Assembly: GCA_003649565.1 (NCBI GenBank)
Contig: QMSF01000035.1
Span: forward strand, 1-7,573
Source: Thermoprotei archaeon
Lineage (GTDB): Archaea > Thermoproteota > Methanomethylicia > Nezhaarchaeales > WYZ-LMO8
Direction of reading: 5' to 3'
DNA: 7,573 nucleotides
Made by a program: the position numbers and the translations under genes. Within the stretch, counting starts at the first letter, position 1. Each line of letters opens with the position of its first letter. The notes below the pieces were generated by a model that searched no databases, had not been told where the DNA came from, and was given only the letters and a program-made list of their open reading frames with translations. Below, one piece after another: positions 1 to 7,573 of the stretch.

Positions 1-1011
1 ACGCTCATTAAAAACTTCTATCTTCAGCCAGATACTCCTGCCCGAAGATGCATAACTACCTATATAGTCGTGCTGTGGCTCCTCCCACACATCCTCAAAC
101 CCACCACCAAAATGGTATCTGTTTGCAAATGAGTCACCTGTAGCTGTGGGGACGGCTACTAGGTAGTGAGTCTCATTAACCTCCTTTACAGCCCACACCT
201 CCTCACTAGGACAACGATATAATGTTAACGTGTATAGTGGAACGAATTTCTCACTTAGGAATTCCTTACGACCAAATTCATCAAAAGAATAGTAAACTAT
301 CATACCCACACCTTTCAATCGTAGTGTTATATTGAATAAATACCGGTCACAATCGTACCCTAGGTATGTAACATTCTCGATAGCGATGCTAAACCTTGGT
401 AGAGGATAATTGATATACATGTCTATTACGTCCCCAAAATAAGGGTCAGGGGTCAATACTATTCTCCCTATTTTAACGACATCGCCCCTCTCTAACCCTA
501 GAAAGTCATATACTTCAAAGTATAACCTGCCACCAGCCGCATCTTCATAACATTCATTCACTTTCTTATACGATTCCCAAAGAGAGCTGGGGGTATAGGG
601 TATTAGGAGGGTATCATTATCAACACGTAGAGCACAGTCTATGTCGGCCGAGAAGCACTCCTCATAAAGTTCTCCTACACGGCACTCGATCGTCGAACCG
701 TGGCGCTTCCACTCTAGGTTCGTCCTTACTGCCAAGAATAATATTAATGACCGCCAGCTTCCCATTTTATCCCTCCATTCGAGGAGTGATAAATATTGTC
801 TTAGTATTGTACTATTTGGTTCAACCCATCCTAATACCTCGAAGTAATATTGTTTTCCGTTTTTTATGAAACAAAATGAATAAGTCCCGTTAATTACCCT
901 TAGAGTAACTTCTTTTTTATTCTCTTCCTGAATCACGCCTAACACTACTATGAAAGTGAAGAATAGAATTGTTCCTACTCCTATAACTTTTAGAACCTTA
1001 GTCGTCTTCAT
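1..1011 (-). CDS. Signal-anchored, cysteine- and sequon-rich extracytoplasmic protein (C-terminus beyond left edge)
   Basis: A reading frame of 337 codons stays open to the left edge, so the 5' end is present and the 3' end is missing. It starts MKTTKVLKVIGVG. A hydrophobic segment at about residues 9-27 fits an uncleaved signal anchor or signal peptide, so the rest should lie outside the cell. The outside part has six N-glycosylation sequons (N41, N66, N132, N213, N227, N279) and seven cysteines (47, 110, 119, 126, 154, 221, 267), which could form disulfides. It looks beta-rich and I recognise no family. The start at 1011 is supported by an upstream AAGGGGGT (1021-1028) on the coding strand; an in-frame ATG at 1020 is possible but touches that site. 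The gene follows the 1014-1388 gene after two bases, so the two are probably one transcript. Function unknown. Confidence 0.8.
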   Translation of the reverse strand, partial: MKTTKVLKVIGVGTILFFTFIVVLGVIQEENKKEVTLRVINGTYSFCFIKNGKQYYFEVLGWVEPNSTILRQYLSLLEWRDKMGSWRSLILFLAVRTNLEWKRHGSTIECRVGELYEECFSADIDCALRVDNDTLLIPYTPSSLWESYKKVNECYEDAAGGRLYFEVYDFLGLERGDVVKIGRIVLTPDPYFGDVIDMYINYPLPRFSIAIENVTYLGYDCDRYLFNITLRLKGVGMIVYYSFDEFGRKEFLSEKFVPLYTLTLYRCPSEEVWAVKEVNETHYLVAVPTATGDSFANRYHFGGGFEDVWEEPQHDYIGSYASSGRSIWLKIEVFNER

Positions 1012-1013
1012 GC

Positions 1014-1388
1014 TTAGCATACCCCCTTAGGTGTGACTACTGGAACTACTCCGCCCCTAACCTTGCCTAGGATAAGCCTCCCCTCAACCTCTAGCCTATA
1101 CCTCCTACCTCTAACATAAGGCTTCGCTAGTTTAAGCTCCCATGACCTCTTGCTCCTCGGAGGCATCCTCCTGAAGAAGACAACCTTGCTAGCTAGCTCC
1201 TCCCCATGTATGATTTTAGTGAACTCCCAGAAGAGAATCTTTCTACGAATTCGAAGGGGGTGGGGGTAGAGCATGGCTAGAGTTACTGCGTTGATCTCAA
1301 CGGGGAATATTGTTTTATTGAAAAGTTCTACACGTATAATCCTCTCTCCTAAAGGATACATGTTCAAGAGATCTAGCACAACACCCAT
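1014..1388 (-). CDS. Small basic beta-rich protein of unknown function
   Basis: Hypothetical protein of 124 residues from ATG 1388, ending in cysteine (TPKGVC). Residues roughly 16-35 (RIIRVELFNKTIFPVEI) and the part around RSWELKL to RYRLEVEGRLI look like strands of a small beta-sandwich, loosely like WHy/LEA14 or CARDB-type folds; this is weak resemblance only. It is rich in Arg and Lys. The frame can also begin at TTG 1427 (137 residues). I prefer ATG 1388 because a good TATA-like box lies about 28 bases upstream, fitting a leaderless mRNA, and because TTG 1427 has no ribosome site. The longer form would add a fairly hydrophobic N-terminus that could act as a membrane anchor, so the alternative is not excluded. 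The downstream gene (1-1011) starts two bases after its stop. Confidence 0.65.
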   Translation of the reverse strand: MGVVLDLLNMYPLGERIIRVELFNKTIFPVEINAVTLAMLYPHPLRIRRKILFWEFTKIIHGEELASKVVFFRRMPPRSKRSWELKLAKPYVRGRRYRLEVEGRLILGKVRGGVVPVVTPKGVC

Positions 1389-1410
1389 CAAGTATATTGT
1401 GTAATGGATG

Positions 1411-1420
1411 AGATATAAAC
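1411..1420 (-). promoter_or_regulatory. TATA-like promoter for the 1014-1388 gene
   Basis: On the minus strand the bases read GTTTATATCT, preceded by purine-rich GGAAG that could serve as a BRE. The centre lies about 28 bases before ATG 1388, the usual archaeal TATA-to-start distance for a leaderless transcript. It would drive the 1014-1388 gene and the 1-1011 gene. No experimental support. Confidence 0.5.
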
Positions 1421-1512
1421 CTTCCAATATGAGTACTAACGAGAAATTTCCTCTTGCAGAATATGCTGAATCCCTGATTAACTTTTATTCATAAATTCAT
1501 AGTGGAAAGTTT

Positions 1513-3390
1513 TTAGTGCTCGAGACTTTTGACTATGGCTTCTGCTTCTTTGGCACGCTCGAATGCATGTATTAATCTCGCTAGATGCGCTAGTGGTGCT
1601 ATTATGGGGGTTATTGCGATTAGATTTGCTATGAACATTGCTTGTATGCGGATGCTATCTATAAAGGCTTCATCTGGTGCATAGAGGAAGTTGGCAATAT
1701 TAATGGCTAACTGATTTACAAGACTCATGATTAAAATGCCCAAAGCATAAATGAGCATTGTTGATTTGTAGAGTCTTTCAGTACGTTCTCTTTCGCTTGG
1801 GTAGAGTATTGCAGAGGCTAGGAATAATCCTGAGCCTATTCCACCAAGTAGCAAGACCATAGGATTGCTTGTTAGCATCGATGCCATGCATAAGACTGTG
1901 ATAACAGTGATATGCCCTAAACATGCTTCTAATGCCTCCTTATTGACTAAACGGGCTAAGGCTAGTAAGATGGCCCCTGATGCTAATGTAAGCCATATTG
2001 GGTGAAGCCTTAACAGCTCATAAGCACAGTAAGCTGGGACTACTTGAACAATTACTGCTGGCAGGCCTAATTTGAGCCTATGCCTTCTACTAGGAGCTCC
2101 GCATAAGGCTACGATTGTTGATAATAATGGTAATCCCAGCCAGGCATAGTCAAGCAACGTTCTCTCAAAGCTTGCTTCAAGCCTAATAGTGCCTTCACCT
2201 ATTAGAATGCCTCTAGGCGATTTGATCATGGCTTTAACCTTATACTCGCCAGCTAGGGGTACCTCTAAAGTCCATTGCTCCTCATAGTTATTCCCTTCAA
2301 GCTTAAACTCAAGACCACCTATGCTGAACTTCAACGTATATGGTGGCTTGTAAACACAAGTCACATTAATTAAGCCGAACGCGGTTCGTTCAAGCCTCAG
2401 CCATGCAGTCTCTTCACGAGCTACATAGTGCTCAAAGGTTAGGAGGCGTTTATCGACCCCGAGCCTACTAATGATTTTGCCGTTCTCTAACGACCATGAA
2501 AATTCATAATCTTTAACAACCTCATTAGACCACTTAATAATGCTTATACTCACGATCCTAGGCTCCTGCTTAACGACGATAGCGGGAACGATGGTTGCGT
2601 TTATGAATGCCGGTCTGAAGGCGATGAGGGTCTCGATGTTGAACCATTCTGAGAAGCTAAGGCTTGTGAAGTCTTCATAGGAGTAGTTTCTAAGCACTAG
2701 CTTAGCCCGAACCTTCGCGTATGTATCCCGAGCATTCTCAAGTAACCACCTAGCCTTTCCAGCATCCTTGAAGAGGCATAACCACATGGCAGTAGCCTTT
2801 ATTGAGGGCCTCGAGGAGTTTCTAATCCATGAGATCGCATAACCTAGATCGAAGTCTCTAAGCATATTCTCGCTAACATTATAGCCTAAGAGCCTAAGCG
2901 TCATAACTATGTAGTAAGCCTTGTCAAAGGTATTGGCTTTGATAAGCTCGTGTAGTAGAAGGCTTGCATTAACCTCAAATCTAGCACCTATAACCTTGAG
3001 GAGCCATGTAGCATACAACGTCGCCTCAGGGTTAAAACTAACCTCACTAGGCGTTTGAGAGAAGTACCCATTTCGCCTACATGCTAAGATAAAGCTTAAC
3101 CCTACTTCATCAAGCTCTATGCCGTAAAGAGATTTGAGAAGAAGCTCTCGAGCAATTTCAGAACATACCAAAGCCTTGGCTTCATATGGTGGTCTTGGAA
3201 CATACTCTACATGCCTTACCTCACCATAATCTACAGCCTCAAGGGTTAGTATTATTGAGTGCTCTCCCTTTGCAAGGATCGTGCTATTACTAGGCAAGAG
3301 GTTTGACAAAAATAATCCTAATATAATAATTAGTAGCGTTCCCCAAAGGTTCGGGGTATGACTACCTATAACCCTCATACCTAACACCAC
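1513..3390 (-). CDS. Polytopic membrane protein with outside helical-repeat and beta domains
   Basis: Hypothetical protein of up to 625 residues. Residues 14-31 form a signal or anchor helix. Residues about 65-235 are helical with three similar units near 119-141, 153-175 and 194-216 (pattern Y-A-x3-L-K/R-x-I/L-G), recalling the alpha/alpha-toroid repeats of prenyltransferase-like and thioester-type domains. Residues about 270-408 look like one or two beta-sandwiches. About seven membrane helices follow (near 413-431, 440-461, 464-482, 487-506, 509-530, 541-570, 582-607), then a short charged tail. Seven N-glycosylation sequons (N35, 141, 171, 191, 235, 264, 342) all lie in the predicted outside part. 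The start is GTG 3390 or, better spaced from the GGAGG site, GTG 3387; ATG 3378 is also in frame. It overlaps the end of the 3362-4057 gene by 29 bases, so the two are probably translated together. No enzyme motif seen; a surface or sensing role is a guess. Confidence 0.8.
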   Translation of the reverse strand: MVLGMRVIGSHTPNLWGTLLIIILGLFLSNLLPSNSTILAKGEHSIILTLEAVDYGEVRHVEYVPRPPYEAKALVCSEIARELLLKSLYGIELDEVGLSFILACRRNGYFSQTPSEVSFNPEATLYATWLLKVIGARFEVNASLLLHELIKANTFDKAYYIVMTLRLLGYNVSENMLRDFDLGYAISWIRNSSRPSIKATAMWLCLFKDAGKARWLLENARDTYAKVRAKLVLRNYSYEDFTSLSFSEWFNIETLIAFRPAFINATIVPAIVVKQEPRIVSISIIKWSNEVVKDYEFSWSLENGKIISRLGVDKRLLTFEHYVAREETAWLRLERTAFGLINVTCVYKPPYTLKFSIGGLEFKLEGNNYEEQWTLEVPLAGEYKVKAMIKSPRGILIGEGTIRLEASFERTLLDYAWLGLPLLSTIVALCGAPSRRHRLKLGLPAVIVQVVPAYCAYELLRLHPIWLTLASGAILLALARLVNKEALEACLGHITVITVLCMASMLTSNPMVLLLGGIGSGLFLASAILYPSERERTERLYKSTMLIYALGILIMSLVNQLAINIANFLYAPDEAFIDSIRIQAMFIANLIAITPIIAPLAHLARLIHAFERAKEAEAIVKSLEH

Positions 3391-4057
3391 CAGCCTCCTC
3401 TTTAACCCTCTTTACCACGAAATATGCTGAAGTGACCACAATTAAGACCAAGCTGATGGTGTAAAGCTCTCTTAATCTTGGAGTGTATAGTATGCGTATG
3501 AAGGAGTCTAAAGGCAGTCGTTCGAGAAGGCTTAGTGTTATTGATGCATAGGCGTATGCAAGGTCTTCAAGATCCTTAGGCTTATAGGAGAGCCAGTAGT
3601 CAATAAGCTTCTCAGGGTCATCACTATAAAGCCTTACAGAGCCCCAGTCCAAGCGCTCTAAAAGGCTTAATAGCTGGGATCCGAGTTGCTCTGAGTAGCC
3701 TTTAACTTTAAGCATGAGAGCTAATAGAGTGCCTACATAATGGGCGCATTTCTCAAGCTTATTGTGAAGCATGGAATCGTAGGCAAGGCGGTAGTAGGCT
3801 AGTAGTGTCTCGCGATGATCAGCAACATCAAGCTTAATCGCTTGAGTAGCTGAGAGCTTAATCACCCGCTCGTAGGGAGCTAGAGCATCATGGACTTTAG
3901 AGTGAGCAAGTACCAAGCATGCGATCTCACCTGCATAGCTAGGTATGAAAGCATTTGCCATTAGGATGACCAGCATCAAGCTTAAGGCTACCATGAGGTA
4001 GAAGCAAGGGAGTAGAAAAGAAGACTTACAGGATAGTGTTAAAGATAGAATCTTCAT
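3362..4057 (-). CDS. Membrane protein with helical extracytoplasmic domain and two terminal membrane segments
   Basis: Hypothetical protein of 231 residues. A hydrophobic stretch at about residues 14-38 (ending near FIPSYA, a possible signal cleavage site) and a second at about 199-215 bracket a mostly helical, charged domain (about 42-195). The C-terminus is short and basic (VKRVKEEAGG). The expected topology is type I: helical domain outside, small tail inside. No family recognised and no sequons obvious. It starts at ATG 4057 without a clear ribosome site, so the mRNA may be leaderless. Its stop lies inside the 5' end of the 625-residue gene; the overlap and shared membrane topology suggest that the two proteins act together. 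The gene is divergent from the Gp37/TcmP unit, sharing the 156-base region 4058-4213. Confidence 0.8.
   Translation of the reverse strand: MKILSLTLSCKSSFLLPCFYLMVALSLMLVILMANAFIPSYAGEIACLVLAHSKVHDALAPYERVIKLSATQAIKLDVADHRETLLAYYRLAYDSMLHNKLEKCAHYVGTLLALMLKVKGYSEQLGSQLLSLLERLDWGSVRLYSDDPEKLIDYWLSYKPKDLEDLAYAYASITLSLLERLPLDSFIRILYTPRLRELYTISLVLIVVTSAYFVVKRVKEEAGGVRYEGYR
3394..3400 (-). promoter_or_regulatory. Ribosome binding site of the 1513-3390 gene
   Basis: The minus strand reads GAGGAGG here, inside the 3' end of the upstream gene. GTG 3390 is three bases away and GTG 3387 six bases, so the second GTG is the better-spaced start. ATG 3378 is 15 bases away, which is too far. Confidence 0.6.
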
Positions 4058-4074
4058 GAGAGATAAGCAGAGGG

Positions 4075-4084
4075 ATTAAAACCA
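4075..4084 (-). promoter_or_regulatory. Possible TATA-like box for the 3362-4057 gene
   Basis: The minus strand reads GGTTTTAATC around here, centred about 22 bases before ATG 4057. This is slightly close but would fit a leaderless start, which would explain the missing ribosome site. A second AT-rich candidate lies near 4101-4112 (TTTAAAGTTATA on the minus strand). Confidence 0.3.
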
Positions 4085-4114
4085 TACTCCTCTTCGAGGG
4101 TATAACTTTAAACT

Positions 4115-4125
4115 GATAATTTATC
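4115..4125 (+). repeat. Short perfect palindrome in the divergent intergenic region
   Basis: GATAA-T-TTATC is a perfect inverted repeat of two five-base arms around one base. It lies between the two divergent promoters and could be a regulator site, but AT-rich palindromes of this size arise easily by chance. Confidence 0.3.
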
Positions 4126-4155
4126 TTCACAAGCGTAATTCCGTGTAGACGCCAA

Positions 4156-4163
4156 TTTATATA
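4156..4163 (+). promoter_or_regulatory. TATA box for the Gp37/TcmP unit
   Basis: TTTATATA lies 51-58 bases before the TTG start at 4214. A start site about 26 bases downstream of the box (near 4185) would give a leader of roughly 28 bases that contains the GGTGA ribosome site. A second candidate, TTTTAAATAC at 4175-4184, would begin transcription too near the ribosome site and is less likely. Confidence 0.5.
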
Positions 4164-4173
4164 GTACCTATAT
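4159..4173 (+). promoter_or_regulatory. Operator-like inverted repeat overlapping the TATA box
   Basis: ATATAG-TAC-CTATAT is a perfect inverted repeat with six-base arms. It overlaps the TATA box by five bases, where a bound repressor would block TBP/TFB. The position suggests the cassette is regulated; the regulator is unknown, though the first protein's own N-terminal domain is a candidate. Confidence 0.35.
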
Positions 4174-4202
4174 CTTTTAAATACTAGGTACCATGTATAA
4201 AA

Positions 4203-4207
4203 GGTGA
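4203..4207 (+). promoter_or_regulatory. Ribosome binding site fixing the TTG start at 4214
   Basis: GGTGA matches the archaeal 16S 3' end and is followed by exactly six bases, then TTG 4214. An in-frame TGA at 4205-4207 forbids a more upstream start, and ATG 4210 is in another frame that stops after six codons. The TTG start is therefore well supported. Confidence 0.75.
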
Positions 4208-4213
4208 ATATGT

Positions 4214-5236
4214 TTGTGGGACGAGGCTGAAAGGCTTATCGAGCATATTAAGAATCGCGGACCTAGAAAAGTATTCTACGTTGGAAAAAGCAAAGATGGC
4301 AGATATTACGGTAGAGGGAGGATCAGCGCCCCCAAGAAGTTTATTGGTAAGAAGGTATACATAGTTACTGAGGAGGAGCTTCAAGAGCTTTCTAGATTAC
4401 TTGTTAGGTTAAATGCCCTTAAGGACTTCTTCGTCGCTTTCTTGAACTCTGAAAAGTGCCCGAAGATGTTCAATATTGTTGGCGAGACATGGAATCCAGT
4501 TACAGGATGTATACATAATTGTAATTACTGTTGGGCACGGAAGCTGGCATTATCGAAGCTTCGAAACTCCAGAAGGTATCGTAATGGCTTTATACCTCGG
4601 CTTAATCCTGAAGAATTTAGAAAAAGCTTTAAAGGAGGGATAGTCTTCGTCAGTGACATGGGGGATCTATTTAATGTGCATGTTAAAGATGAATGGATCA
4701 TGCGGGTTATAAGGCATATAAGGAAGTTCCCAGACACCTTCTTCCTCTTCCTCACGAAAAATCCAGCGAGATATCAAGAATTCATAGGGCACTTTCCGAG
4801 GAATGTGATCTTAGGGACCACCATCGAGACAGATGATGATGACTTATATCTCAAACATCGCATTTCTTCGGCTCCCATTCCTAGCCGACGTTATAAGGCT
4901 ATGAAGGAGCTCAACTGGCCTTGCAAGTTCGTCTCTATCGAGCCGATACTTGACTTCAACTTAGATAATTTCGTGAAATGGATCCGGGATATAGCTCCCT
5001 TCATGGTTTATGTAGGTTATGACAACTACAATAATAAGCTCCCAGAGCCATCACTCAAGAAGACTATGGCGCTTATCGAGAAGTTATCAAGGTTTACACT
5101 TGTAGTGAGAAAAACCATCAGACCAGCTTGGTTCGAGAGTATGGAAAGCTATATTGATTTCTCTAAGTCGGCGAAAAACTCGAATGAGGCTGGGGTGAAG
5201 CAGAATGTCCGAGAGAATAAGAAGCGAGAGGTATGA
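4214..5236 (+). CDS. Gp37/Gp68 (DUF5131) family three-Cys-motif protein, radical SAM-like
   Basis: Protein of 340 residues. The core from about residue 86 matches the phage Gp37/Gp68 family (PF07505, DUF5131): ETWNPVTGC, then C99-x3-C103-x2-C106 followed by WARK, the spacing that binds a 4Fe-4S cluster in radical SAM enzymes. Other family-like blocks are SDMGDLFN (147-154), FLTKNP (179-184), GTTIET (201-206) and SIEPILD (241-247). The reaction and substrate are unknown for the family. Residues 1-85 are extra compared with the usual domain: residues 18-52, centred on GRISAPKKFIGKKVYIV, resemble small AbrB/DUF2080-type beta DNA-binding domains, followed by a helix (53-78). The last 25 residues are charged and probably disordered. 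It starts at TTG 4214 on ribosome-site evidence. It overlaps the tcmP-like gene by 32 bases, the standard partner of this family, so joint function is expected. The family call is firm; radical SAM chemistry is inferred. Confidence 0.88.
   Translation: MWDEAERLIEHIKNRGPRKVFYVGKSKDGRYYGRGRISAPKKFIGKKVYIVTEEELQELSRLLVRLNALKDFFVAFLNSEKCPKMFNIVGETWNPVTGCIHNCNYCWARKLALSKLRNSRRYRNGFIPRLNPEEFRKSFKGGIVFVSDMGDLFNVHVKDEWIMRVIRHIRKFPDTFFLFLTKNPARYQEFIGHFPRNVILGTTIETDDDDLYLKHRISSAPIPSRRYKAMKELNWPCKFVSIEPILDFNLDNFVKWIRDIAPFMVYVGYDNYNNKLPEPSLKKTMALIEKLSRFTLVVRKTIRPAWFESMESYIDFSKSAKNSNEAGVKQNVRENKKREV
5192..5198 (+). promoter_or_regulatory. Internal ribosome binding site of the TcmP gene
   Basis: GGGGTGA lies inside the end of the upstream gene, six bases before ATG 5205. 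The spacing is identical to that of the first cassette gene and of the 6648-7349 gene, supporting ATG 5205 as the start and translational coupling. Confidence 0.7.
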
Positions 5237-6296
5237 GAGATTTGAACAGTACCTCTACAAGTTAAGAGAACTTGCACTAGGCATTATGGATAACCTTGAT
5301 GATAACGATAAAAGAATTATCCGGGGCTTTTTCAAGAGACAGTATCCTTCCCCAAGAGAGCATTATTGGAGCATTAAGAAGCTATACTGTTTCGCTATGT
5401 TTCTGCCAGTATTTCTACAGATTGGCCTAAGCTACTTTGATAAGCTCATATACATAGATACGCATGCAGGCCCTGGACTAGCTAAGATTGGACCTGAAGA
5501 GGATGAGTTTGTTCCTGGATCACCACTAATAGCCCTAAAATGGCCTGAAATAATCGCAGAGACCTGCAAACCTTTCAGGAAGATACAACGTGGCTTTGAT
5601 GAATATGTCCTAGTAGATAAGGATCCTCAGGTACATAATATATTACATAGAATAATTAATAATGTTGCGAAAGATAAAGAGGTCGCAGTAATCAACAGTG
5701 ATTCCAACCACTACCTGCCCTCGCTAGCTAAGAGGATAAGTAAAGAGCAGGCGAAAAAGAGAGTTCTAGCTCTCCTTTTCGTAGATCCCTTTGGAATAAT
5801 CAAGTCCCAACTTAGCTATAGTGCATTATCATCTCTATTAGGCGGCGATTGTAAAGTTGACGTAGTAATGAACATAATGTCAAGTATGTTAGCCCGTGGA
5901 CTATCATATCAGCTTAACTCTAACTACCTCAAATATAAAGACACTGTTCGTCTCTTATTTAATGACCTTCCTAGCAGGGTAAGAGGTCTCTCTCTTTTCG
6001 AATATTGCCTTAAGAAACCCTCACCAAAGGCTAGTATCTCACGCGACGACGTAGTTCAGGCCTATATACATTTATTCAAAAGCTTTAGGTACCAGACCAT
6101 ATTTTGCGTACCTGTCGAGTTTCGAGAAGGTCAGATACTCTATCATTTAATCCTTGCTTCAAAAAGTCGTGGGGCTCGGAGATGGCTAGGTAATTATGTA
6201 AATTATATAGAATCTCAGTTACCACAAGGCTACGAGAGTCTCAAAGCGAAATGGTTTAAGGTATCTGGAAAGGGCCTTTACAAATGGCTCTCTTAG
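5205..6296 (+). CDS. tcmP: Three-Cys-motif partner protein TcmP (methyltransferase-like)
   Basis: Protein of 363 residues that I recognise as TcmP (TIGR04474), named for its regular pairing with C-x3-C-x2-C proteins of the Gp37/Gp68 family, exactly the neighbour here. A Rossmann, SAM-methyltransferase-like core is visible: YIDTHAGPG (83-91) as the nucleotide-binding motif I, GSPLIAL (105-111), an acidic strand end LVDKD (136-140), NSDSN (164-168), and FVDPFG (192-197) where methyltransferases carry the catalytic DPP-type loop. YHLILASK (313-320) is a typical late TcmP block. Residues 1-80 are helical. No signal or membrane segment, so it is cytoplasmic. Its true activity is not established; a modification step together with the upstream protein is an inference. 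It overlaps the upstream gene by 32 bases and has its own ribosome site, so it should be made in a fixed ratio with it. Confidence 0.88.
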   Translation: MSERIRSERYERFEQYLYKLRELALGIMDNLDDNDKRIIRGFFKRQYPSPREHYWSIKKLYCFAMFLPVFLQIGLSYFDKLIYIDTHAGPGLAKIGPEEDEFVPGSPLIALKWPEIIAETCKPFRKIQRGFDEYVLVDKDPQVHNILHRIINNVAKDKEVAVINSDSNHYLPSLAKRISKEQAKKRVLALLFVDPFGIIKSQLSYSALSSLLGGDCKVDVVMNIMSSMLARGLSYQLNSNYLKYKDTVRLLFNDLPSRVRGLSLFEYCLKKPSPKASISRDDVVQAYIHLFKSFRYQTIFCVPVEFREGQILYHLILASKSRGARRWLGNYVNYIESQLPQGYESLKAKWFKVSGKGLYKWLS

Positions 6297-6313
6297 AATT
6301 CTGACCGGAATTA

Positions 6314-6334
6314 TCTTAAGAAGCAATCTTAAGA
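6314..6334 (+). repeat. Paired self-palindromic octamers downstream of tcmP
   Basis: TCTTAAGA, itself a perfect palindrome, occurs twice with five bases (AGCAA) between. In RNA the two copies can form an eight-base-pair stem with a five-base loop on either strand. It lies 18 bases after the tcmP stop and could protect or end the transcript; it could also be a protein-binding site. No T-run follows, so a classical terminator is not shown. Confidence 0.45.
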
Positions 6335-6335
6335 G

Positions 6336-6351
6336 CCCGCCTAAGAGCGGG
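6336..6351 (+). terminator. GC-rich hairpin, possible transcript end element
   Basis: CCCGC-CTAAGA-GCGGG forms a perfect five-base-pair GC stem with a six-base loop, standing out in an AT-rich gap. It directly follows the paired octamers and lies between the ends of convergent reading frames. No T-tract follows on either strand, so termination is only a possibility; an RNA-stability role is equally likely. Confidence 0.3.
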
Positions 6352-6364
6352 TACGCTCCTATAA

Positions 6365-6554
6365 TCACAGTTGCTCTCCCAGTATCCCTTCTGATTCGAT
6401 AGCTAAGGTCTCAAGGGATGGGTATAATACATCAACAAATTCTGGATGAGTGAACCTTAGCATGTATTTTGCCTCCTCCTCATATTTGATAATGGGTTTA
6501 GGTCATGTAGACGACTTCCTTCTCTCCATCCGATACTATTATAGCCTTTTTCAT
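6365..6554 (-). pseudogene. Frameshifted remnant of a small leftward gene
   Basis: On the minus strand ATG 6554 begins MKKAIIVSDGEKEVVYMT and stops at TAA 6498-6500. An overlapping second frame, open from 6502 and ending at TGA 6365-6367, continues in protein-like fashion (PKPIIKYEEEAKYMLRF, then HPEFVDVLYPSLETLAIESE). Joining them needs one frameshift near 6498-6504 and would give a protein of about 64 residues. Alternatively the second frame is a separate 32-codon gene from ATG 6463, since GAGGAGGAGG at 6472-6481 sits eight bases upstream. No family recognised. Broken gene, tiny gene, or chance cannot be settled by eye. Confidence 0.3.
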
Positions 6555-6570
6555 GCATTAATACTGCCAC

Positions 6571-6582
6571 TTGATAAATCCT
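6571..6582 (+). repeat. Direct repeat copy 1 (TTGATAAATCCT)
   Basis: This exact 12-base sequence recurs at 6625-6636, 54 bases later, in the gap behind the 6648-7349 gene. On the minus strand each copy reads AGGATTTATCAA, which includes a weak TATA-like core, so paired promoter or regulator sites are possible. Confidence 0.5.
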
Positions 6583-6624
6583 GTAGGGCACGTGAGGTAG
6601 AGAGAATACACCTCAACTCTCAAG

Positions 6625-6636
6625 TTGATAAATCCT
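6625..6636 (+). repeat. Direct repeat copy 2 (TTGATAAATCCT)
   Basis: Second exact copy of the 12-base repeat at 6571-6582. It overlaps the right arm of a small inverted repeat, CAACT-CTCA-AGTTG (6614-6627). It lies only 12 bases past the stop of the 6648-7349 gene on the minus strand. Confidence 0.5.
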
Positions 6637-6647
6637 CCGTAGAACGA

Positions 6648-7349
6648 CTAAACTTCAGTCATTAAGAGAGCCTCAGCTAATGTTTCAGGCTTCTTATCCC
6701 CCACCTTCCTCCTAACCTTCTTCACACGCTTAATCTTAGCCCTCCTAATCTTCCTCGGCTTAGCCCCTGCCTTAGGCCTCCTCCTAAGCTTGTAAGCACT
6801 AGCCCCAATTGCTGGTGCTATCATGAATGGCATAGCTTTAAGCAAGGCTTCGGGAATTATCTCATAAGTTCTACCAATACTTATTACACCACCTTCCCAA
6901 TAGATGACCTTCTTGAAGTTAGAGCCTACGATTTCAATCTCGTAAGCGCAGTAGGGCAGGTCTTCAAGAATGTAAGAGGTCTCTCCTGTAAGCAACCATG
7001 TATGATTCGTTCCAAGTAGCTTAACTCTAATTGTTAGGCTTCTAGGAGCTTGTATGAGCATACCGCCTACAAGAACTCTTAGCCTGTAAGTGCCGTTAGG
7101 CACTAGCTGAAATTCGCCAACACACAAGCCCATGCGATAGACTTTGACCAGAACCTTTGAGGCATTAGTCCTTACAAGCCAGTAAGTCTCATTATAAAGT
7201 TCAGCCTTACCACCTATGGTAATCACTTGGACCTTATCGCTTATGGGCTCGCCGTACTGATTAACGACAATTAGCCAGAGTTCACCAGCTCGAACCATAG
7301 GCATCATAGATATGAGCGTGGATAGTACTAGTAGTAACCATAGCCTCAC
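6648..7349 (-). CDS. Secreted single-pass membrane protein with beta domain and very basic tail
   Basis: Hypothetical protein of 233 residues. A signal peptide covers about residues 1-21 (LWLLLVLSTLISMMPMVRA, likely cut after ARA-type VRA). The outside part (22-160) is beta-rich: LWLIVVNQYGEPISDKVQV resembles the first strands of carboxypeptidase-regulatory or CNA-B-like domains, and a second beta unit seems to follow from about 86. It has four sequons (N53, N62, N85, N115) and two cysteines (76, 134). A membrane helix lies at about 167-187. The tail is extreme: 19 of 32 residues in 189-220 are Lys or Arg, with a short acidic end. It could contact nucleic acid, phospholipid or an acidic partner. 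It starts at GTG 7349, overlapping the upstream stop by four bases, with GGTGA six bases before. Function unknown. Confidence 0.8.
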   Translation of the reverse strand: MRLWLLLVLSTLISMMPMVRAGELWLIVVNQYGEPISDKVQVITIGGKAELYNETYWLVRTNASKVLVKVYRMGLCVGEFQLVPNGTYRLRVLVGGMLIQAPRSLTIRVKLLGTNHTWLLTGETSYILEDLPYCAYEIEIVGSNFKKVIYWEGGVISIGRTYEIIPEALLKAMPFMIAPAIGASAYKLRRRPKAGAKPRKIRRAKIKRVKKVRRKVGDKKPETLAEALLMTEV

Positions 7350-7573
7350 AGCTCATCACCTATAGCAAGCAAGTCCATAAAGCCCAAGTCACGATATGAC
7401 TTAATGACTCGGACTAGGGCTTTCTCAATCTCCGCGGACTTATAGCCCTTAGGCATAAGCTCATTAAGAAGCCTTTTGAGAATATCTTGAAGCACATCTC
7501 TAAGTCTCTCCCTCTCTATGACTGGATAATTCCGCCTTAGATAGTCGTAGATAGCCTTCAATAGCTCATTAGA
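7346..7573 (-). CDS. C-terminal part of a helical cytoplasmic protein (start beyond right edge)
   Basis: The last 75 residues are visible and the frame is open to the right edge, so the start is probably outside the window; an in-frame TTG at 7561 has too little upstream sequence to judge. The visible part is charged and almost wholly helical (AIYDYLRRNYPVIERERL, then LQDILKRLLNELMPKGY), ending LLAIGDEL. It has no signal, membrane segment or cysteine. Its TGA overlaps the GTG of the 6648-7349 gene by four bases, so the two form an operon with coupled translation. No family recognised. Confidence 0.65.
   Translation of the reverse strand, partial: SNELLKAIYDYLRRNYPVIERERLRDVLQDILKRLLNELMPKGYKSAEIEKALVRVIKSYRDLGFMDLLAIGDEL
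7356..7360 (-). promoter_or_regulatory. Ribosome binding site for GTG 7349
   Basis: GGTGA on the minus strand lies exactly six bases before GTG 7349, inside the end of the upstream gene. It matches the spacing of both cassette genes and supports the GTG start. Confidence 0.65.

Follow-up and report, generated by a model that had tools for sequence, protein, structure and literature searches.

Which reaction is carried out by a pair of neighbouring genes that has a name and no known function is the question raised by a 7,573-nucleotide stretch of DNA from a Thermoprotei archaeon (contig QMSF01000035.1 of assembly GCA_003649565.1, positions 1 to 7,573 of the forward strand), the whole of which is called the window here. 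The genes encode a DUF5131 protein and a TcmP protein, and the answer favoured below, to which about an even chance is given, is that they form a mobile two-enzyme module modifying one nucleic-acid substrate. TcmP was found to be a relative of Escherichia coli RlmJ, the methyltransferase that forms N6-methyladenosine (m6A) at position 2030 of 23S rRNA. The partner of TcmP is a radical S-adenosylmethionine (SAM)-type protein drawn from any of several families resembling spore photoproduct lyase, which sharpens the picture given in a preliminary description of the same DNA. The families, the folds, the conserved catalytic residues, the proximity of TcmP to radical-SAM-type proteins, and the fusions are all established computationally. 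The features on which the argument turns are as follows.

4214..5236, plus strand: DUF5131 gene (PF07505, Gp37/Gp68-type), radical-SAM-type protein of 340 aa, TTG start
4508..4531, plus strand: C-x3-C-x2-C motif (CIHNCNYC), predicted [4Fe-4S] ligands, codons C99 to C106 of DUF5131
5205..6296, plus strand: TcmP gene (TIGR04474), RlmJ-like class I SAM methyltransferase of 363 aa, ATG start
5379..5381, plus strand: TcmP K59, aligned with the essential K18 of RlmJ, Lys in 30/30 alignment rows
5457..5477, plus strand: TcmP motif I DTHAGPG, the SAM-binding loop, residues 85-91, matching DTHAGAG of RlmJ
5784..5795, plus strand: TcmP motif IV DPFG, residues 194-197, D194 aligned with the essential D164 of RlmJ, Asp in 30/30 alignment rows

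The preliminary description had placed both open reading frames (ORFs) and the C99-x3-C103-x2-C106, DTHAGPG, and DPFG motifs correctly, and its assignment of the two families held in profile searches, in which the window TcmP exceeded the curated cut-off of TIGR04474 (90.3 bits, E 1.9e-25, cut-off 53) and its partner that of PF07505 (75.6 bits, E 5.8e-21, gathering cut-off 28.9). A family match by chance is excluded because the best relatives reach E 4.4e-139 for TcmP and E 2.2e-139 for DUF5131. The radical-SAM-type fold that it had envisaged on one side and the SAM-binding fold on the other are likewise borne out by predicted structures that match PDB folds. The AlphaFold 2 model of TcmP (predicted local distance difference test score of 92.0) contains a SAM-methyltransferase fold for which RlmJ was the top PDB match in two comparisons, and the methyltransferases nearest by fold include the RNA enzymes RlmJ, Trm1, and TYW4. 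The alternative that TcmP is a nucleotide binder and not a methyltransferase was rejected on the class I methyltransferase fold and the motifs.

Kinship with RlmJ is also evident from profiles. Using hhalign, a profile of 28 TcmPs matched E. coli RlmJ at E 2.8e-7 (probability 93%) and the methyltransferase RsmJ at E 0.42, and widening the TcmP profile to 30 sequences and setting it against eight close RlmJ sequences gave E 3.7e-7. In a comparison with 559 proteins, comprising neighbour and control genes together with RlmJ and RsmJ, the TcmPs having been taken out, RlmJ came first at E 5.7e-7 and the runner-up reached 0.007. With the curated TcmP model itself, E. coli RlmJ appears at E 0.0012, far under the model's cut-off but as the sole other family up to E 0.1. 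Four TcmP residues, D85, G89, G91, and D194, are invariant among 28 sequences, the window included, and in a joint TcmP/RlmJ alignment of 13 sequences K18, D40, G44, G46, G99, S100, L127, D164, and P165 of RlmJ do not vary; common to both families are the motif X Lys, YxDTHAGxG, GSPLIA, and the Asp-Pro of motif IV. Catalysis by RlmJ requires K18 and D164 (PMC3814359). With TcmP being RlmJ-like, a nucleic-acid base is therefore its likely target.

The predicted structure of the DUF5131 protein is a radical-SAM barrel with fold matches to spore photoproduct lyase, viperin, lipoyl synthase, and NifB, the first of these being the best PDB fold by VIA-align. The radical-SAM motif is present on this barrel-type fold as CxxxCxxC with an aromatic residue before the final Cys (C99-x3-C103-N-Y-C106), and these three alone among the Cys stay invariant across 52 aligned sequences, the window protein included. 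This triad and the four invariant TcmP residues agree with the earlier remark that the motifs of both proteins are intact. By its sequence, the protein is a divergent match to PF07505, of a divergent subfamily but still within the family: the profile match is partial (residues 90-247, profile positions 8-165 of 243) and the spacing is C-x3-C-x2-C rather than the typical C-x6-C-x2-C. The latter is found in 12 of 18 aligned DUF5131 proteins paired with TcmP, the former in the window and five others. A true spore photoproduct lyase was considered and rejected for want of a family match (TIGR04070 and TIGR03886 do not match the protein at E up to 1) and of a fourth conserved Cys.

The evidence that binds the two families together comes from their surroundings in other genomes. 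In an archaeal survey of 398 genomes (the phylum of a Desulfurococcales relative), TIGR04474 occurred at 26 places in 24 genomes, 24 of the places being over the cut-off and one, in genome G373, carrying an internal stop, and a radical-SAM-type neighbour was present at 23 of the 26. The neighbour was PF07505 at 14 places (one fused, and one TcmP-DUF5131-TcmP cluster counted twice) and another C-x3-C-x2-C protein at nine more, while the three partnerless places comprise two partial, sub-cut-off matches and one whose nearest such gene lies 3.7 kb away. When the ten partners outside PF07505 were classed, the 3.7-kb distant one included, six proved to be related to spore photoproduct lyase (TIGR04070), and the other four belonged to the Rv2578c, PA0069, and mobile-pair-B families. 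The six lyase-like partners (loci L007, L009, L010, L017, L019, and L024) have seven invariant Cys, four of them outside the cluster motif, and these extra residues may hold a second metal site. As a control, C-x3-C-x-[YF]-C, a pattern that overlooks x6 and x3-x3 spacings, was present in 2 of 293 genes of 20 control regions, all archaeal.

A bacterial survey of 296 genomes (the phylum of Lentzea) yielded 44 TIGR04474 places in 37 genomes, of which 30 loci were examined, the remaining 14 being largely partial matches. A radical-SAM-type neighbour was found at 29 of the 30, with a strong DUF5131-profile neighbour at 20 and another three-Cys protein at nine (eight C-x3-C-x3-C and one C-x3-C-x2-C). 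One of the 20 DUF5131-type loci, L133, showed no three-Cys motif over the stretch of ORF covered; by eye, this ORF beside TcmP (L133:1486-2955) contains an extra stretch resembling an intein or homing-endonuclease insert. The sole partnerless locus, L146 (1174-2157), is a TcmP fragment, and it adjoins what appears by eye to be an IS30-type transposase. The orientation of the pair varies freely among divergent, convergent, same-strand, and fused, and three fused TcmP/radical-SAM-type proteins were found (P0004, P0005, and L021). TcmP and its radical-SAM-type partner are thus a real functional pairing, as had been proposed from the family names.

The N-terminal part of the window DUF5131 protein may also bear on this pairing.

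4214..4450, plus strand: extension at the N-terminus, about 75-79 residues long, in which residues 35-51 weakly resemble DUF2080 (NF033496)

The NF033496 match (E 3.6e-4, 20.0 bits) falls just below its cut-off of 22. Among the loci examined, the extension, a feature of the window clade, was present in 5/5 close homologues paired with TcmP versus 0/16 unpaired ones, and further database relatives carry such an extension as well. From this pattern it might be suggested that the extension contacts TcmP, although common descent could explain the pattern too.

Both window proteins, adjacent to each other, match the PADLOC phage-defence candidates PDC-M41 and PDC-M30, which have the same two components, A being TcmP-type and B DUF5131-type. 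The window proteins score 70.3 bits (3.8e-20) for PDC-M41B and 64.1 bits (4e-18) for PDC-M41A, compared with 332 and 206 bits for those of Sinorhizobium meliloti, and they differ by the C-x3-C-x2-C instead of C-x6-C-x2-C spacing and by the N-terminal extension; fused forms are a further difference. The kind is already known, the pair being named by NCBI and listed by PADLOC, and the archaeal form described here, N-extended and with C-x3-C-x2-C, is a variant of it. Among archaea, Pyrodictium abyssi has the pair, and mobile elements carry it too. It is convergent in Gordonia phages, lying near integrases and an immunity repressor in Jablanski, the one viewed, and convergent again in the IMG/VR contig L122, and TcmP matches were obtained in 26 plasmid records; the window TcmP itself had no match among viral contigs. 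In two Streptomyces plasmids that were viewed DUF5131 stands beside TcmP, in one of them with a NACHT gene next, and on pSymA of S. meliloti DUF5131, two TcmPs, and an 852-aa PDC-S28 protein are grouped. The latter is presumably Hna, the defence gene (SMa2245) that appears with TcmP SMa2243 in one table of putative transcription units in PMC12445080.

Three side observations concern the same genes. One DUF5131 may be accompanied by two different TcmP genes, as on pSymA (L123:9083-14903), where one is of PDC-M30A type and the other of PDC-M41A type, and in the archaeal genome G127 (L014, L031). Gene 79 of Mycobacterium phage Bipper (L106) is a DUF5131 without a recognised TcmP, amid hypothetical genes, and a solitary DUF5131 may have a viral role of its own. 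A Gp37Gp68 protein of an Erythrobacter phage is labelled an "ssDNA-annealing protein" in a table of PMC5463345, which misfits the radical-SAM-type fold found here.

As a mechanism, TcmP would bind SAM in its RlmJ-like Rossmann fold and, through K59 and D194, methylate the exocyclic amine of a base, with adenine N6 favoured and guanine N2 possible. The DUF5131 protein would hold a [4Fe-4S] cluster on C99, C103, and C106, cleave SAM to the 5'-deoxyadenosyl radical, and carry out another reaction, either on the base that TcmP methylates or on one next to it. As accessory cargo, the module would travel through archaea, bacteria, phages, and plasmids, most likely serving host-virus conflict. That the base is shared, in which order the steps run, whether DNA or RNA is the target, and what part conflict plays are matters that we infer. 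A bolder version, held to be rather unlikely, is that the pair makes an undescribed base modification, in which one nucleotide undergoes RlmJ-type N-methylation and, before or after it, radical chemistry. The constant core would then be TcmP, paired with several lyase-like radical enzymes whose final bases differ from one another, in a mobile self-marking or anti-virus family of archaea, bacteria, and phages.

A number of results weigh against the two-enzyme reading. On the TcmP side, motif IV is without the DPPY of RlmJ and is mostly DPxG, the x being variable (F, Y, E). In the 30-TcmP alignment, two rows of which are the same Pyrodictium protein and one of which (L011) has a doubtful N-terminus, DPFG occurs nine times, DPYG seven, DPEG seven, and seven variants once each. 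The base and chemistry of TcmP may therefore differ from those of RlmJ. The RlmJ tail of motif X, in which Y4 and H6 are essential for catalysis according to PMC3814359, is not kept in the joint alignment. When a TcmP profile was run against PDB sequences, a designed protein and dihydropteroate synthases ranked ahead of RlmJ, which reached no better than E 0.7-0.9, and single-sequence searches for solved relatives gave none credible for either TcmP or DUF5131; a DUF5131 profile against PDB sequences also found nothing credible. PF04055 matches the window DUF5131 at 23.6 bits (E 6.7e-5), under its gathering cut-off of 29.5, although it is present in some close relatives. PF07505 was found in 69 archaeal genomes, in 55 of them over the cut-off, and only 12 of these 55 have an adjacent TIGR04474, so that archaeal DUF5131 mostly stands without a TcmP neighbour. 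The preliminary description had asked whether the genes are usually apart, and the answer is no from the TcmP side and yes from the archaeal DUF5131 side. Five viral contigs (L112-L116), possibly fragments, with DUF5131 proteins 44-55% identical to that of the window have no TIGR04474 over the whole record.

The remaining points against concern defence. PADLOC families near 20 archaeal pairs include Hma, HEC-05, MTase_II, and Cas3, but the control regions show Cas10, MTase_II, IetA, and others, and defence genes were not clearly commoner near the pairs than in the controls. The scan covered 244 of 252 genes near pairs (eight TcmP or radical-SAM-type genes were omitted) and 149 of 293 control genes (150 random draws, one very long gene omitted). 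No enrichment is claimed because defence families occur in the controls too and the counts are of families, not genes, with the best 25 of 110 and 25 of 109 families listed for two of the three sets. The six proteins flanking the window pair had no match to PADLOC models at E up to 0.01. The "defence or mobile context" envisaged earlier is supported in part, by the PADLOC candidacy and the carriage by phages and plasmids, but not clearly by the archaeal neighbourhood and not by the flanks.

That TcmP is a true RlmJ was itself rejected, as DPPY, Y4/H6, and PF04378 all fail: the last does not match the window TcmP at E up to 1 and matches 2 of the 30 TcmPs at E up to 0.1, with a best E of 0.024. 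TcmP also lacks a counterpart to part of the RlmJ sequence lying between motif I and GSPLIA.

Among the other explanations, the one that survives best, and a serious contender if somewhat short of an even chance, is that tRNA or rRNA is the substrate of the pair, as it is for RlmJ and Trm1, and that the effect falls on translation or an RNA-targeting attack, not on DNA. Being a narrower form of the two-enzyme reading, it shares part of its probability. The RNA enzymes among the nearest methyltransferase folds speak for it, as does the DPFG common to TcmP and Trm1, the tRNA G26 methyltransferase (PF02005), in four of five archaeal genes examined, the fifth being without it. The motifs around DPFG in Trm1 are unlike those of TcmP, and PF02005 matches neither the window TcmP at E up to 1 nor the 30 TcmPs at E up to 0.1. 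Against a restriction to RNA, the nearest radical-SAM fold and six of the ten alternative archaeal partners relate to spore photoproduct lyase, a DNA enzyme, and the active site of RlmJ is itself described in PMC3814359 as nearer to DNA m6A methyltransferases.

The same kinship could instead point to DNA repair or demodification, with the radical-SAM-type protein reversing a lesion or a foreign base modification in the manner of spore photoproduct lyase and TcmP assisting. The partners are indeed close to the lyase in fold and family, lyase relatives substitute for DUF5131 beside TcmP, and three of 120 listed relatives of the window DUF5131 are named "DNA repair photolyase". In the lyase, Cys140 is the H-donor Cys outside the cluster motif, and Cys140 mutants are named in the PDB titles of lyase structures. 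The window clade has only three invariant Cys and therefore no conserved counterpart of Cys140, searching the window protein with the lyase models gave no hit at E up to 1, and a patchy distribution (24 of 398 archaeal genomes) with phage and plasmid carriage misfits housekeeping repair, all of which leaves this explanation improbable.

Little weight, about the same, is given to a two-part toxic or abortive-infection system in which TcmP damages nucleic acid and DUF5131 restrains or completes the damage. The PADLOC listing, the small and tightly paired genes, and the company of integrases and an immunity repressor in phage Jablanski would suit it. Against it, the variable orientation sets this pair apart from typical toxin-antitoxin operons, the fusions argue for joint catalysis, and DUF5131 is found alone. 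Chance neighbours, or two unrelated genes on one element, find support in the 12 of 55 archaeal genomes paired, and are already contradicted, and most improbable, given partners at 23/26 and 29/30 TcmP loci against a motif in 2/293 archaeal control genes, and given the fused proteins.

Within the window, the 3' end of DUF5131 and the 5' end of TcmP share 32 nt, an overlap from which translational coupling of the two genes is suggested. One further feature was read from the sequence.

4174..4184, plus strand: putative archaeal TATA box (CTTTTAAATAC), lying some 30 nt 5' of the TTG start

Scans for Sigma-70-type promoters and terminators around the pair stayed near chance level, and a repeat scan found none notable flanking it. 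Hairpins lie in series directly 3' of TcmP (6297-6355), the folding energy of 6297-6380 has a z of -2.2 versus shuffles, and a terminator or processing site is possible there. The flanking ORFs are on the minus strand (1-4057 and 6648-7573) and encode six proteins of 340 (partial), 137, 625, 231, 233, and 75 (partial) aa, none over any Pfam or NCBIfam cut-off; a search of 200 genomes from the phylum, run without a positive control, returned nothing matching the 625-aa protein. The plus-strand pair is positioned as if inserted into a minus-strand cluster.

Among the matches listed in the open-licence PMC literature, no paper was found that states the RlmJ link or tests the pair. The pair is widespread in a patchy fashion, TIGR04474 occurring in 24/398 genomes of the archaeal phylum and 37/296 of the Lentzea phylum. 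The likeness of TcmP to RlmJ indicates which reaction is likely and singles out two residues for mutation, and the several kinds of radical-SAM-type partner show where to seek the product, by which a function-unknown pair becomes directly testable by nucleoside mass spectrometry.

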